From Dermatophagoides farinae (lineage: Eukaryota > Arthropoda > Arachnida > Sarcoptiformes > Pyroglyphidae): a DNA stretch of 64,000 bases. Shown piece after piece: positions 40,940 through 48,800 of this stretch. The stretch is from the NCBI RefSeq assembly GCF_024713945.1, contig NC_134679.1, positions 1,803,001-1,867,000 of the forward strand. The letters are read 5' to 3'. The notes under the pieces are model-generated. The model was not told the origin of the DNA. It ran no database searches and saw only the letters and a list, made by a program, of their open reading frames with translations. How positions within the stretch are numbered: position 1 is the first letter of the stretch; the number at the start of each line of letters is the position of its first letter. Position numbers and translations under genes: made by a program.

Positions 40940-42633
40940 TTATTGTTGATGATCATGGTGATAGCAAGCGGCCAACATGGCCGAACCAATCACGCCACCC
41001 GTTTGAGTAGCGAATACCTTTGTTCGTTTTGTTGGACATAATTCCTTTAGAAATCCATTGATCAATCGATCCATCTTTGGATGTTTCGAAAATAATGATC
41101 CATCGCAACTAACGTGTACGACTTGTTCATCCATACGGTTAATAAATGGTGCTAATTCTGAAATGATCGAAAATAATCAATTTGAAATTTCAATGAAAAT
41201 AACGAACAAACCAATAGCACAAAGAAGAGCACAACGAATGGTAATCAATTGACAAACATAGGCAATGATTTTTCGATCGTCCGGTTCAATATCATCGGAT
41301 TGATAATCGAATCGATGGATGAGCATCGAATCAATCTGTTCGAATGATTGATAACAGGAGGAAACCAATTCAAAATCGATACAAGACAAGACTGGTGTTG
41401 CAATCGAATTCGGGTTTTCTATCATGGTGGTCAACTTTCCCCGTAATAATAAACCATTTTTGATCAGATCGACTAAAGCCAATCGAAATAATTCACCAAG
41501 AAATGCACCGCCAAGCATTTTCTCATATCTGCGAAATGAATCAATTGTAAATGTCACTGAAAATAATGTCAATGTAACTTACGTATAGCTATTCGGAATC
41601 AATGATTTTGAATCCAATTCCATGTCGTAACGAGATTTGGCAAAATCTATCTGATGATAATCACCATACAATACACATTCACTGTTTATAATGAATTCGG
41701 TAGGTTTGTAGCCGAAAGCTTGAACCGGATCTTTAATTCGTTTATCTCGTTCGACTTTTTCAATATAAGCAACATTACTACCGGAGCCTAGAATCATCGA
41801 TGCTCGTGTTTCCGGATCGAAAAATCGGCCGTAGATCAATGTTGTTGTTGAATCATTAGCTAGAACAGCAACTTTTACAGGTAATCCAGCAGAATCGATT
41901 GAACTTTGTAATAATTGAGCAGGACATTTTCCCAGAGCATCGGGCAGATTAGTTTGTATGCCGAATTGTACACATCGACCATGATTAATTGATAATTGAT
42001 CGTAACCGAATGAAAAAGTAAAACCTAAGACAATTGTTTCCGTTTGTTGTGGGAAATGTTTTTGTAGAAAATTACCAATCGATTTGGCAAGATGATCGAA
42101 AAACTGAAGAAACATACAGGGTTATCAATCTAAATAAGTTGTATGTAAGAAACTTACTTTTTTACTTTCACCTTGGCGACATTCAATCGGAACAGGAAAA
42201 TTTTCCAAATTGATTCGTTTACCATTATCAGGATGGCCTGGTTCCAAATGAACGCTTGCTATCCTTAGATTAGTTCCACCAATATCTAGGCCAAGAAAAT
42301 GGCCACTTTCTTGATTGGTGGGAAATTTTGTTACAAATGTATTAATCATGGGAAACCCTTGCGGATCAGGTGGTCCACCATTTAACGGTTTATCAATTTC
42401 ATCACCAAATTGTTTGACTAAACGGTCTACGTTATGTTTTGGGATCAGAAATTCACCGACCAGATTGAAAATCTTGTTGATTAAAAAAAAAACATTGAAT
42501 ATGAATGAAAAATTCGAATAAATTATTGAAATACCTTAGTTTTTCTTTCGTCATTGTTAATCTCTAATTTTGGATGAAAAAATGGATCATTCTGTAGATA
42601 GAATTCATCTTCGAGTTTCGGTACATAAGGCAT
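40940..42633 (-). CDS. Hexokinase, divergent
   Basis: Five exons, 42633-42535, 42472-42158, 42103-41583, 41528-41212 and 41157-40940, give 489 aa with matching phases. Landmarks: phosphate-binding LGLDIGGTNLRIA (from about residue 93), FTFSF, the catalytic Asp in LANDS, a glucose-contacting Glu in NSECVLYGD, phosphate-2 loop ILGSGSNVAY, YEKMLGGAFLGEL, and the adenosine motif CDGSLFSKHP. These show a single-domain hexokinase that phosphorylates glucose in the cytosol. The usual WTKGF glucose-binding signature after FTFSF is absent (FGIQTNL here), and the late GSGKGAA loop is GGVIGSA. An acceptor CTACAG sits directly before the start codon, so a 5' untranslated exon is likely upstream. Confidence 0.88.
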
Positions 42634-42851
42634 TCTGTAGTAATGTAGATTAATATTAACTTGGATATGAATAAAAAAAGTCCTGTCCTTGTCTTTTTTT
42701 CTTTATCTATGTTATCACCGCATATGGATTGGATAAGCCTGAATTGACATACCCACTAACATGATGATGATAATCCTGTTGCCGTGAACGGGGAAAAATC
42801 AAAAACTTTATTTGGATTTGGATAAGATATCAAAAAATAATTTAGGAAATA
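42634..42851 (-). promoter_or_regulatory. Hexokinase 5' region with probable untranslated exon
   Basis: On the minus strand CTACAG ends one base before the hexokinase ATG, and a GTATGT donor begins at 42752. An untranslated first exon ending at 42753 and an intron of about 117 bp would fit. The retrotransposon lies less than 100 bp further upstream. Confidence 0.4.
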
Positions 42852-42955
42852 TGTTGCATGAAAATGTCTAAGCATACGTCCTTTATGGACGAGTCATATT
42901 CTCTTGTATATAAACACAGTCACATGCCTAAATAAAATCATTGTGAATCGTAACA
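42852..42955 (+). repeat. 5' LTR, 104 bp
   Basis: It is identical to the 3' copy. It contains TATATAAA at 42907-42914 (probable promoter) and AATAAA at 42931-42936 (poly(A) signal), and ends in TAACA. It is very short for an LTR but complete in signals. Confidence 0.95.
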
Positions 42956-42967
42956 TGGTAGCAGAGC
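42956..42967 (+). other. Primer-binding site, initiator tRNA-Met
   Basis: TGGTAGCAGAGC starts at the base after the LTR. Eleven of its 12 bases are complementary to the 3' end of metazoan initiator tRNA-Met (..CUCUGCUACCA), the primer used by many copia elements. Confidence 0.85.
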
Positions 42968-43158
42968 GTGGTTCTCTCCTGCTTGACACATTGAAAATTG
43001 TTTTTGAATCTGACTTGTGAGATTTACCTTGATTGTCTCTCAATTCGTTTGTGTTTATTAAAATTGATTGTGATTACTAAATGTGATTGTTTGATTGTCT
43101 TATAGACGAAAAAATTTTTTGTATCCGTTTTGTGTGTTCATCGTGTAATCAAAGTAAA

Positions 43159-44607
43159 ATGGAACAACTTCAATTGCTCAGTTCTTTATCGATTTCGGAC
43201 ATCAAAAAATTTGATGGTACCAACTTCAAATGCTGGCTTGATGAAATTAAACTGTGGTGTGATGGTTATGGCTTTTCTGAGCTATTGGAATTAACATCAA
43301 TTGAAAATGTTAATGCTGATAAAAAGAAGAAATTGAAGATGCTTCGGGCGCGAATTTTGTGCTTCATAAGAGAAGATATAAGAGAAGCGTTTTTGCAATA
43401 TGATCTGCCCAGCGAAATCATCAATCAACTGAAAGATCGTTTTGATAAGCAGAATCAATTTCATAAAGCAAATCTGGTTGATAAATTGATGAACATGAAG
43501 CTCAAATCAGATGAAGACCTAATGGTGTACCTATGTCGTTTTGACTCATTGGTTCTGCAAGCTAAGAAAGCTGGAGCAGAGTTGCAAGATGACATAATCA
43601 TAAATATCCTATTGAATTCGCTGCCTAGTGATTATGATAAAATTAAAGAAGATGTTCTCGACAGTACAGACATTTCGCCGATTTCTCTTGACAGAGTAAA
43701 AGAATCATCATCTGATCAAGCTCTTCGTGTTGAAAATCCACGTGGCAATCATCGAGAAAATTTTCCAACCGTCAATCGTAATTGTTTCAAGTGTGGTGGC
43801 GTTGGCCATTTTGCTAGAGTTTGTCCTAGTGGTAGATATGTCAACGAGCAACGTCGTTATTTTGTGTCAAGCAACAGTGGGCCTCAAAATCAATTGTCAT
43901 CGAATAATGGCGCGCAAAATCTTCGGTCTTCAAGCAATGCGCAACAAAGTGCACCATCATCAACGAATAATAACGCGCGAAATTCACAACGGTCGACAGG
44001 CGGCGCTCAAAGAAATGCACGACCACCAGCAAACAATAATCAACGTGCTTTTGTGTCACAAGATGAAAATATTGAAAATGAAAGTGGACATGCATATTCC
44101 ACTACCAATGTTGATCATAATGCTTCATTGTCTGATTGGTTTATTGACAGTGCGTCGTCGAAACACTATTGTAATGATGAAAATCAACTTTATAATCGAC
44201 GAGAGTGTTTTTCTTCGGTATTGACAGCTAATGGTGATCGTTGTCAAGCGTCCTCTGTTGGAGATCTTGATCTAAAAACGTCCGATGGTTCACTCATGAA
44301 GCTTAAAAATGTGGAATCAGTATCGACCTTCGATAAAAATCTTTTGTCTGTTCCTGCTACGTGTGATAGAGGAAATATTGTAGTTTTCACTGACAAAGAA
44401 TGTATCTTCCTTGATAAAAACAAATGTAATTTGAATTATGATGAATCAGCTGTAAAAATGATTGTTCCTCGTACTGGAAATGCATATATCATCAAAGCAA
44501 ATAGAATTAATTCTGAAAACTATGCCAATTCATGTAATGATGATTCAAAAGTTATTTCGTGGCACCGTAAATTTATTTATACGAAATTATCTGCTAAAAT
44601 TTCTTAA
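43159..44607 (+). CDS. gag: Copia Gag plus protease region, truncated
   Basis: The frame from the ATG at 43159 gives 482 aa. The N-terminal half is a helical copia Gag domain that opens with KFDGTNFKCWLDEIKLW. A zinc knuckle CFKCGGVGHFARVC (CX2CX4HX4C) follows near residue 215, then a Ser/Asn/Gln-rich linker. The aspartic protease motif is WFIDSASSKHYC. The frame then reaches the pre-integrase segment (VISWHRKF) and changes abruptly into about 10 unrelated residues and a stop at 44607. This change marks the left edge of the internal deletion. Gag would assemble particles in the cytoplasm. Confidence 0.88.
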   Translation: MEQLQLLSSLSISDIKKFDGTNFKCWLDEIKLWCDGYGFSELLELTSIENVNADKKKKLKMLRARILCFIREDIREAFLQYDLPSEIINQLKDRFDKQNQFHKANLVDKLMNMKLKSDEDLMVYLCRFDSLVLQAKKAGAELQDDIIINILLNSLPSDYDKIKEDVLDSTDISPISLDRVKESSSDQALRVENPRGNHRENFPTVNRNCFKCGGVGHFARVCPSGRYVNEQRRYFVSSNSGPQNQLSSNNGAQNLRSSSNAQQSAPSSTNNNARNSQRSTGGAQRNARPPANNNQRAFVSQDENIENESGHAYSTTNVDHNASLSDWFIDSASSKHYCNDENQLYNRRECFSSVLTANGDRCQASSVGDLDLKTSDGSLMKLKNVESVSTFDKNLLSVPATCDRGNIVVFTDKECIFLDKNKCNLNYDESAVKMIVPRTGNAYIIKANRINSENYANSCNDDSKVISWHRKFIYTKLSAKIS

Positions 44608-44818
44608 AGCTGATGATGTATTTGTACGTCGTAATTCTGCATCGCTTTTAAGAAAAACGATTGATAGTCTTGAAGAAGTGGATGAAAATACATTTGCTGA
44701 AGTATTGAAAGAACTTCGTAAACGAAGTGTTGATAAAGACAAATATGTTCGTTCATTAATTATGTTGTGTTTACGAAAACTTCAATATATTAATAAGGAT
44801 GATGATGAAGCCATACAA
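44575..44818 (+). pseudogene. Captured HEAT-repeat fragment resembling condensin CAP-G
   Basis: Between the gag end and the RT remnant the second frame is open without a stop and reads as a cellular helical repeat protein, not as copia. Recognisable pieces are FIRNYLLKFLKADDVFVRR, SLLRKTIDSLEEVDENTFAE, then SVDKDKYVRSLIMLCLRKLQ. The pattern (helix pair, VRxR, acidic D-x-F, then DKxxxVRxxAxxxLxxLQ) resembles the HEAT segment of condensin subunit 3/CAP-G. It is in a different frame from gag and has no start of its own. No intron is seen, which would fit capture from RNA. The family call is from memory of the pattern, and the edges are good to about 20 bp. Confidence 0.5.
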
Positions 44819-45720
44819 ATATTGAAATTCAATCCATTGAACGAAGATTCGAAGTGCATGATTATGCCGATTGCTCAAAGTATCTTGGTCTCAACATCGA
44901 GGTTAACGAAGATGCAATCTATATCGATCAAACAAAATATATAGATAGCATTCTTGAGAATTTTGAAATGACGAAATGCAATCCTACCATTGTGCCAATG
45001 GATGATATGGAGGACTTCACAAATTGTCCCATCGACGACAAGTATCCGATCAAAGAAATTCTCGGATCGTTAAATTATATTGCGTGCAGATCCAGACCGG
45101 ATATTGCTTTGTGTGTATCGTATCTTGGTCGTTTTGCCGATAAACCATCTGACAAACTGTGGACAGCTTGTAAACGTGTTCTACGGTATTTAAAAGGAAC
45201 CAAACACCAACAATTGAAATTATTGCCTGTCAACGAATGGATTATAAATGTGTACACCGATGCCAGTTTTCGTTCCGACAGCAGCTCTAATGCAACCAGT
45301 GGATCCGTCACACTCGTGGACAAATCGCTTATCAACTGGTCATCGAAAAAACAATCGAGGTTGCCGCATTCAACATGCGAGGCTGAATTAACAGCTGCAC
45401 TGGAAGGATGGAAGAACGCCGAACCAATTAGACAACTGCTTCAGGAGTTTGGCATCAATTCATCAGTTAAACTTCATGTGGACAATAGTGCGGCAGTATC
45501 AATCATGGACAACAATGCATTCAAAAAGTCGAGATACTTTGCTTACGATCAAAAGCTGTTAGTCTCCAAAATGAATGCTGATAATCTAGTCTCTATAGCA
45601 AGAGTGCCATCATCTGATCAATTGGCCGATGCTTTAACCAAACCTTTAAAACATATCAAACTTAATGTATTTACATCACGTATGCTTAGCCAGAAGGGTG
45701 TGTTGCATGAAAATGTCTAA
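44809..45720 (+). pseudogene. pol: Copia reverse transcriptase 3' part and RNase H
   Basis: The frame resumes as the distal RT region (RRFEVHDYADCSKYLGLNIE, then QTKYIDSILENFEM and SLNYIACRSRPDIALCVSYL), followed by RNase H with its acidic residues in VYTDASF, CEAELTA and VDNSAA. It ends LADALTKPLKHIK, typical of copia Pol C-termini, with the stop at 45718-45720, inside the 3' LTR. The YVDD active site and everything before it are absent, so no active polymerase can be made. The residual RNase H domain itself has no visible break. Confidence 0.88.
45692..45700 (+). other. Polypurine tract
   Basis: AGAAGGGTG directly precedes the 3' LTR, the usual site for plus-strand priming. It is short and has one pyrimidine. 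Confidence 0.6.
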
Positions 45721-45804
45721 GCATACGTCCTTTATGGACGAGTCATATTCTCTTGTATATAAACACAGTCACATGCCTAAATAAAATCATTGTGAATCGT
45801 AACA
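45701..45804 (+). repeat. 3' LTR, 104 bp
   Basis: No difference from the 5' LTR was seen over the full length. It contains the last 20 bases of the Pol frame and is followed by the AAATA target duplication. Confidence 0.95.
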
Positions 45805-48800
45805 AAATATACATTCTCTATGAATGGATCTTGGAATGAGAACATGTTTGCATCACAACAACAACAACAACAAATTGTTATCCTTTAAATCTCTCTTTGT
45901 TCATTTAGAATTGAGTGAATATTCTGGAAATTTCTAATTTGAAACTTTAATGATTTTACAAATTCATTGTCCAAAAAATATTGGTCATAAACAATGCACT
46001 TTGGTTTATGTCATCTAAATTGTTTTGCAAAAAAAATTCGATTGTATTGTGTGTATGTCATTTTTGCTTTTTCTTTTTTTTTTGACGATTTCAATCATCA
46101 TTTTACACTATTAAAACATTGTTTTATCGTTTTTGCGTCATACAATCTCTGATTGTTTGTTTGATTTGATATAAAAATAACATCCTCATTTATTATTAAT
46201 TGATGATTTGCAATCGAATCGATCACCACAACGAAATATCAGGTAGGTTTCTGATATTTAATTATTAATTTTTACCAATTGATAATGTTAGAATAATTGA
46301 GCTGAATAATAATATTATATATATCGAAACAATTTGTTTGTTTGTCCATCTGGATATATTTTAGTAAATTTATAATCAATAAATATACTGTGTGAACAAC
46401 ACCTGAAAGTTTTCATTTATGGTTACAACCATCAAGTAAAACTTTTTGAGAATAAATAATAATAAAAATAATGCCTATTGGGTATACCACCGTGATGGAT
46501 GATAAGCATGTCGATAAGTTCTGTTCTGTCGATGGTAATGAATCAAAAATAAAAAAATAAAAATAAAATGCATAGAAAAATAACCAGACAGTGTGGGCGA
46601 TAATGAATAAGAAACTGAGAAACCGACATTTATATTTATATATAGGAGTGAGTGAATCCATAAATCATTTGATCACTACCATCATCATCTATGCTATATT
46701 TGTGTATTTGACTCGAATCGACTCAAGTCTATAATGTTTTTTGATTTGATGGCGTGTTCTGTTCTATTGTTTTGTTTTGTTGTTGTTGTTGTTGTTCGCC
46801 CAAGGAATTTATTCCATAAAATATACCGGGCGTGTATATGGTTTGAAATGTGTGAAAAATGTTTTTATCATCATCAAATATATAATTGTCTTAGAATATA
46901 GAAATTTTTTTTCCTATAAATTTTCGCGTTTTTTGTTGTTGTTGTTACTACACATATAGTTCGTTCCGGATCGATGACGCGAATCGGAAATTGATTTCAG
47001 TATTTTTTTTTTTTTTATTCATTGCACTCTGTTTTTAGTTGTTTTTATGTTTTTTCATTCTATCGATGTATCAATGATGATGATGGGAGGTGTTTTATTT
47101 GATTGCTACATTTATTATCATCAATGGATTGTTTCGTTTGGTTTGTTATCCATTCTGTAATTTTTTTTTTTTTTTGCTCATCAAAATCCGGATCGTTATA
47201 TCACACATATATACACTCACTACACAGTTTCAATTTGAATGGCCTTGTTTTTTTTCTGCTGACCATGGCAGAAAAAAATTGATGATGGTCATTCAACATT
47301 ATTGTTGTGTGTGTGTGTGGATATGATGATCTTATATATCGATTTTGTTTTTTGTTGTTGTTGTTGTTCCATATACATGTGTTTATTAGATTGATTTGTT
47401 GTATACACACAATGTTTTCAACAAACAAAACAAAACACAAGTAGTAAAAGTATCAATTTATATTGTGAATTGAATGATAATTCTTATATAATGATGTTCA
47501 TTAATAATGAATAAATCTGCCAATGTTTATTGTTTACGTGTTTTTGTTTTTGTTTTTGTTTTTTTTTTCGTTGTTGTTTCAAAACAACAACAACAACAAT
47601 GATAAAAATAATGTAATGATCGTGATCAGAATTTCATCTTAAAAAAATGAAAATGTATTTGACAATATATAATATTATGATGATGATGAATGATGAAAAT
47701 TTTTCACTTTGTCGTTCTAATTTCAAAATTGTATATTGATCAGTATACAACAATAATCTTGATGATGATGATCCCAAATTCTTTAGGGTATTTATTGTTG
47801 TAATATTGACTATTGCTATTTGGTTGGATAAATCGGTTTTTTGTTTCTTTGTTTCATCGTTCCATATATATCAATCGATATACATGATGACCTTGGATTT
47901 TTTTTGTTTTTGTTTTTTTTTGCATTTATTAAAATCCATGCATTGATTGAAAATTGAATTGAAAAAAGAATGAAATGATTCACAGAAGATGGAGCTCTAT
48001 CCAATTTAACAATTCCAATGTCAATGTTTTGACACATATACAAAGAGAGAGAAAAAGAAAAAGTTGGTTGATGTATGTGTGTATATTGTGTGTTTTTGAT
48101 GTTATAATGGAAAAAATTTGCCAACATGGAACATACTTTTTTTTATATATTCAGATTTTATTACCATTTTTTTTTATTCTTTTTATCGGCATAGTAAGAG
48201 AGAGAAAAAAAAGAATGAATAAATCCAGCGGTCGTGTTGTCAAAATCAAATTGATATTTGCTATTTGTTTGTTGTTTGTGATTGGTTAATGGTTGAATTG
48301 GGATAGAAGAAAAAAAAAATAATTTAAATTTCAAAATAGTTGACTGTCACGAATTTTGAATATGAATTTGCATCCATGTTAAAAAAAAAATGAAAACAAT
48401 TTGCATAACAATACATGAAAGAGAGTCTATCCATTCCATTTCACTCTATATATATTTGTGTATTCAAATGCAGCCACATAATTTCGAACGAAATTCTATA
48501 AAAAATGGTTCACTGTTTGTTGTTCGATTCCATATATATATTATATATTAACATTTTATTTCTGATTCTACATGATGGCTATATCCAAAAGATTTGATTT
48601 GATTTGACAGGTGTCATCATTGTTGTATCCATTTTTTTTTTGTAGCCAGAAAAGGATTGTTTCTCACCTGGTTCAATAATAAATTACAACATTGCGAATA
48701 GAGATGTTTTTTTTTATTCTGAAAAATTTAATAATTTGATTCAATACAGATGTTGGTTTTGATGGTCCATTTTTTGGGGTTTTCTCTTTCAAATTGTTTT

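Follow-up and report, generated by a model that had tools for sequence, protein, structure and literature searches.

Elements of the TR-GAG type belong to the non-autonomous LTR retrotransposons that keep gag only, and the maize element Bs1 is not known to have pol functions. LTR-mediated retroposition in metazoans was reportedly described by Tan et al. in 2016. This process has been presented as template switching between the RNA of an LTR element and a host mRNA at short similarities (PMC5408686, PMC9674220), and template switching has also been described between LTR elements (PMC1950507). Bs1 captured pieces of an H+-ATPase gene and of two other genes, with a transcribed and translated chimeric gene reported (PMC13317346, PMC5408686). 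In the moth Plutella xylostella, Pxyfem comprises W-linked chimeras of PxyMasc and LTR-element sequence that share ATTT at the putative switch point (PMC9674220).

Host-gene capture by LTR elements is already known from Bs1 and from LTR-mediated retroposition, and the element analyzed here, a mite Ty1/copia-type element carrying a fragment of the host condensin gene CAP-G, is the same kind of event.

Architecture of the element and its relatives

The element, of the Ty1/copia type, spans positions 42852-45804 (2,953 bp) of the window, the whole 64,000-nucleotide stretch of DNA that was analyzed. Flank comparison identifies a target-site duplication, AAATA, with its left copy at 42847-42851 and its right copy at 45805-45809, neither assigned to a strand; all features given below for the element lie on the plus strand. 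The 5' LTR (42852-42955), 104 bp in length and bounded by TG and CA, contains AATAAA at its position 80, preceded by TATATAAA at position 56. The 3' LTR (45701-45804) is identical to it at 104 of 104 positions. Directly 3' of the 5' LTR lies the putative primer-binding site TGGTAGCAGAGC (42956-42967), which we take to fit the 3' end of initiator tRNA-Met. The purine-rich AGAAGGGTG (45692-45700), located 5' of the 3' LTR, is the putative polypurine tract.

Three open reading frames were scanned against Pfam. The gag-protease ORF, composed of 482 codons and a TAA stop (43159-44607), matches Retrotran_gag_2 (3.5e-15), Pol_BBD, the Pol beta-barrel domain (8e-13), and zf-CCHC (3.5e-5). The downstream ORF (44846-45720) matches RVT_2 at 4.8e-10, with this RT model (PF07727) covered only from position 187 onward (187-242 of 244), which leaves a remnant of the C-terminal end of RT. 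The remainder of this ORF returned no Pfam match for RNase H and is presumed from its motif to be the RNase H region. The third, a frame-2 open stretch of 160 codons (44462-44944, last codon ending at 44941), includes the insert and both copia flanks and is in frame with neither gag nor RT. No integrase model was matched among the three.

The sequence-only reading had described an element that keeps gag, protease, RNase H and both LTRs and has lost integrase and the RT core. The Pfam matches uphold gag, with its CCHC knuckle and the Pol beta-barrel domain, and the LTR identity upholds the LTRs, with RNase H left at the motif level; the absence of an integrase match and the truncated RT match agree with the described loss. 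By its sequence, the element is a deleted, non-autonomous derivative of Ty1/copia (Pseudoviridae), not a complete copia element. Having neither integrase nor usable RT, it should depend on another element for movement.

No intact same-family helper was found in the assembly by gag DNA, pol DNA, LTR and RVT_2 searches in which the best candidates were scored. The gag DNA search yielded eight matches and the pol DNA search five, the nearest pol relative sharing 77% nucleotide identity. Six matches were obtained with the LTR, four of them outside the element at 85-93%, and 45 with RVT_2, of which 12 were examined. A gag protein of Psoroptes ovis matches at 49% at most.

Two short same-family derivatives of roughly 0.8-0.86 kb are present on contig C6, L019 (C6:4387500-4396000) and L025 (around C6:4335960), with leaders 78-82% identical to that of the element. 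In L019, one LTR is 88% identical, and identity to the LTR falls to 69% at the far end. Both derivatives are possibly TRIM-like. A further locus (C4:890150-890741) extends from an LTR through the leader to gag codon 100 at ~92% nucleotide identity and continues in sequence unmatched to the element. Within the window, the element adjoins hexokinase exons (41579-42640, minus strand; Pfam Hexokinase_1/2) on their 5' side, and the presumed hexokinase start ATG is preceded by TACTACAGA. The element could lie in a hexokinase 5' intron or promoter.

The captured segment and its donor gene

A nucleotide search of the genome with the segment at 44563-44834 revealed two matching places at 93% identity, both on contig C4, at 5986772 (+) and 6012907 (-). 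Each lies inside a 425-codon open frame, a single exon. The exon matches "Condensin complex subunit 3" in the PDB (five distinct sequences, best E=1.3e-14), and a later exon of the same gene matches Pfam Cnd3 (E=4.9e-20). From these protein matches, the donor is identified as condensin subunit 3, or CAP-G. The segment had been proposed to be a condensin CAP-G fragment captured from the host by a copia element, and the presence of the donor gene in the same genome bears this out; its suggested protein comparison likewise gives condensin subunit 3 on the donor and no retroelement as best match, and the search for an intact donor ended in the two C4 copies.

These donor copies (C4:5984500-5990500 and C4:6009500-6015500) form an inverted pair ~26 kb apart that is 98.9% identical over 4,313 bp, with the exons open in both. 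The pair may be a genuine duplication or a palindrome created by assembly. Neither 6-kb locus around the two matches contains any other match to the element. Of the three places matched by the insert in the host genome, only one is the chimera, the other two being the donor pair, which puts the requested count of genomic copies found at one.

A search of 5.8 billion proteins with the donor exon, taking, like all the protein searches, only candidates 0.55 to 1.75 times the query length so that full-length CAP-G of other mites may be missed, returned three matches: the near-identical P0001 and P0002 from other assemblies, and P0003 from Sarcoptes scabiei at 43%. P0003 covers 98% of the exon query under the source name DEP domain-containing protein 1A, a name that looks wrong for a CAP-G exon. 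As the nearest named relative of the donor exon, P0003 supports a mite host in broad terms, as do exons resembling group-2 allergens. Of seven such matches in the genome, two were compared with the PDB; the better one scores 108 bits to Der p 2 over ~103 residues and the other 35 bits, lower than would be expected for a Dermatophagoides.

The frame-2 ORF reaches only sub-threshold HEAT and Cnd1 matches in Pfam (Cnd1 at 22.2 bits, cut-off 26.4), as would be expected if the insert were native to copia or another retroelement and resembled condensin through HEAT-like helices alone. The 93% nucleotide identity to the condensin subunit 3 gene of the host genome refutes this explanation and leaves it with practically no probability.

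Local alignment pairs 272 nt of the insert with 281 nt of the donor; the single gap, 9 nt long and divided by the aligner, falls in a GAT-rich repeat. The insert has the same orientation as the donor gene (sense) and shares with it an 85-nt exact run at 44644-44728. Codon comparison reveals nine substitutions, two at the joint edges and seven in the interior, all nonsynonymous; this count excludes one more mismatch next to the gap, which appears or not according to where the gap is placed. If the donor codons mutated at random, 72-80% of the changes would be nonsynonymous, and the chance of finding none synonymous is 0.10-0.20 for seven of seven and 0.05-0.13 for nine of nine. The insert accordingly gives no sign of protein constraint in this small sample of seven interior substitutions.

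Two of the interior substitutions, V to A and L to S, are common at the residue level to the donor allele P0002 from another sample, and a third, K to Q, matches Sarcoptes P0003. Part of the divergence between insert and donor may be donor variation. Horizontal transfer of the donor from another mite species is disfavored, since gene divergence between species should be mostly synonymous and all seven interior substitutions are nonsynonymous.

The CAP-G frame of the insert is shifted by +1 relative to gag, and RT returns to the gag frame. The gag-frame stop (44605-44607) sits within the captured segment, in its first 45 nt. An insert that is out of frame and contains the gag stop is not expected to yield a CAP-G-like protein. 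The sequence-only reading had noted a different frame without a stop, and frame 2 is indeed open throughout 44462-44941, with both peptides quoted there inside it; the open stretch extends beyond the insert, the copia flanks happening to be open in frame 2. The replacement by foreign sequence was itself read correctly; its stated size of ~250 bp needs correction to about 270 bp (272 bp at 44563-44834).

Joints, proposed origin and probable later copying

The 5' junction zone (44563-44574) reads CACCGTAAATTT in the element, encoding the copia WHRKF motif, and CACCGTAGATTT in the donor. A Psoroptes ovis gag protein has WHRRFGH at this place, in keeping with the earlier statement that gag breaks inside the pre-integrase motif. 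At the 3' junction zone (44827-44834), the element reads ATTCAATC, the donor ATTCCATC and the copia relative L030 ATTCATTC; RT resumes at IQSIERRFEVHDYADCSKYLG, as had been described.

Both joints contain a short similarity, CACCGTA.ATTT on the 5' side and ATTC.ATC on the 3' side, with the copia side of the comparison represented by the relative L030 (~77% nucleotide identity) and by protein P0006. For match lengths picked after the joints had been seen, a control that set copia parts in random registers against the donor exon, with 200,000 draws per case, gave frequencies of 0.000175 for 7 exact nt and 0.000025 for 12 nt with at most one mismatch at the 5' joint, and of 0.0066 for 4 exact nt and 0.001 for 8 nt with at most one mismatch. 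The evidence is stronger at the 5' joint than at the 3' joint, and no exact switch base can be assigned.

The extent of the lost pol region was estimated from L034 and L035, two loci of another copia family (37% RT identity) situated in open frames of 1,360 and 1,375 codons. There, the WH motif at locus position 175 is ~1.82 kb from locus position 1996, the counterpart of window position 44809; the same interval measures ~0.25 kb in the chimera. By this estimate from a different family, ~1.8 kb of pol, comprising integrase and most of RT, would have been swapped for ~0.27 kb of CAP-G.

We consider it probable that the non-autonomous element arose through two template switches during reverse transcription, from copia RNA to CAP-G mRNA and back to copia RNA. 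A CAP-G mRNA would have been co-packaged in a virus-like particle. Minus-strand synthesis would have entered from the 3' side, crossed RNase H and switched at ATTC.ATC to the CAP-G mRNA, copying ~270 nt of it. A return jump at CACCGTA.ATTT would have landed on the copia RNA ~1.8 kb further upstream, deleting that stretch of pol. The resulting chimera would have kept its LTRs, primer site, gag-protease and polypurine tract and would then have been moved by the enzymes of another copia element, with the CAP-G piece as a passenger.

An origin at the DNA level, in which a double-strand break in a genomic copia copy was repaired with deletion of pol and the gap filled with a CAP-G exon via short homologies, is rather unlikely by our assessment, and the altered copy would then have been transcribed and retrotransposed or have stayed in place. 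Near-homologies at the joints are expected for repair too, the host genome yielded a single copy of the chimera, and the fragment lies within one exon, which makes intron loss unusable as proof of an mRNA template. Reverse transcription, in contrast, accommodates the sense orientation and the loss between the jump points without extra assumptions, and a diverged protein with the same 5' joint, P0005, indicates that copying probably followed in any case.

Both joints recur in other assembled sequences. The gag-ORF protein search, conducted on the 8,000 candidates sharing most words, gave four matches. One of these, P0004, a cluster of seven member sequences, is identical to the window gag across the 5' joint, from its third residue to its end. 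P0005 carries the 5' joint as well, with 11 of 318 residues unlike those of the window copy, and ends in ...WHRKFIYTKLSAKIY, the last residue implying the donor base. The single match of the frame-2 ORF search, P0008, has donor CAP-G on the left and continues on the right as element through the 3' joint, changing over at the 85-nt exact run (44644-44728). P0008 is probably a join made by the assembler and even so confirms the 3' joint, the alternative being a real CAP-G/copia fusion. As far as these assemblies are separate from the individual sequenced here, the call for the junctions in independent assemblies is answered by P0004 and P0005 at the 5' end and by P0008 at the 3' end. A scan of IMG/VR with the 5' joint gave no matches.

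Residues 2-29 of P0005 match at 100% a C6 repeat that is present at C6:1097306-1097389 and C10:388864-388953. As judged from these matches, P0005 looks like a left-truncated copy of the chimera gag beside the repeat; a truncated copy of this type was not found in the host genome.

P0008 resembles what would result if, through an artefact of sequencing or assembly, reads of CAP-G had been joined to those of copia, with the donor on the left and the element on the right of the 85-nt exact run. For the window copy, such an artefact is largely refuted and very improbable: the insert differs from the donor by seven interior substitutions and the 9-nt gap, and the joints recur in P0004, P0005 and P0008. 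The chimera is therefore not an assembly error.

The chimera was probably copied after capture, as suggested by P0005, which is known as a protein alone. The target-site duplication and the identical LTRs of the window copy also favor mobilization of the chimera itself. Capture was probably older than insertion of the window copy. The LTRs of this copy differ at 0 of 104 positions, and, were they as old as the capture, the probability of no difference would be 0.06 when seven interior substitutions are considered, 0.026 with nine, and 0.003 if all seven arose in the element's own line. This argument from LTR age is weak because the differences are few and two of the seven interior ones are common to the donor allele P0002; P0005 is the better evidence for capture before insertion.

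A silencing reading and comparison with known systems

Whether the capture has been maintained because the CAP-G piece serves the element or the host, either through a peptide or through a silencing RNA, was weighed separately, and such maintenance appears highly doubtful. The 85-nt exact run common to copy and donor would suit it. Dust mites reportedly have no piRNAs and direct siRNAs against transposons (PMC5805368), and a silencing-RNA-producing chimera of LTR element and gene occurs in the moth (PMC9674220). Several points speak against maintenance. All seven interior substitutions change the amino acid, as seven of seven random mutations would with a probability of 0.10 to 0.20 in the absence of protein constraint; the insert lies out of frame and contains a stop; and other Acari reportedly retain piRNAs (PMC5805368). 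A peptide function in frame 2 is disfavored by the frame, the stop and the substitutions.

A more specific form of the RNA reading, which we put forward only as a long shot by analogy, is that the chimera acts as a natural trigger silencing CAP-G, with element siRNAs that include the CAP-G piece (85 nt exact) acting on the condensin mRNA. It presumes that the host, like dust mites, uses siRNAs in place of piRNAs. If it were true, carrying the element would change condensin dosage, and the element would regulate chromosome condensation, either as a selfish agent or after adoption by the host. The locus makes testable the question of whether transposon-directed siRNAs spill over onto a host cell-division gene.

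The open-licence PubMed Central records considered name neither a condensin fragment in an LTR element nor host-gene capture in an astigmatan mite. The mite element represents a well-preserved capture in which the donor gene, both joints, both LTRs and the target duplication are all readable, and the joints are found in other assembled sequences.

Like TR-GAG, the mite element keeps gag and the end signals and is without integrase and most of RT; unlike TR-GAG, it has a host exon piece and a 3' remnant of pol. It resembles LTR-mediated retroposition in showing short similarity at both switch points. In the mite element, a short exon piece is still enclosed by two LTRs and the target duplication, and the exchange that brought it in also removed most of pol. 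The fusion of a host gene piece to LTR-element sequence is shared with Pxyfem, as is ATTT at a putative switch point; Pxyfem is multicopy, makes silencing RNAs and has LTRs that its authors could not identify, whereas the mite element has intact LTRs and was found in one copy (PMC9674220). The likeness to Bs1 lies in the presence of host gene pieces inside an LTR element (PMC13317346, PMC5408686); unlike Bs1, which carries pieces of three genes, the mite element is of the copia type and carries a single piece, out of frame.
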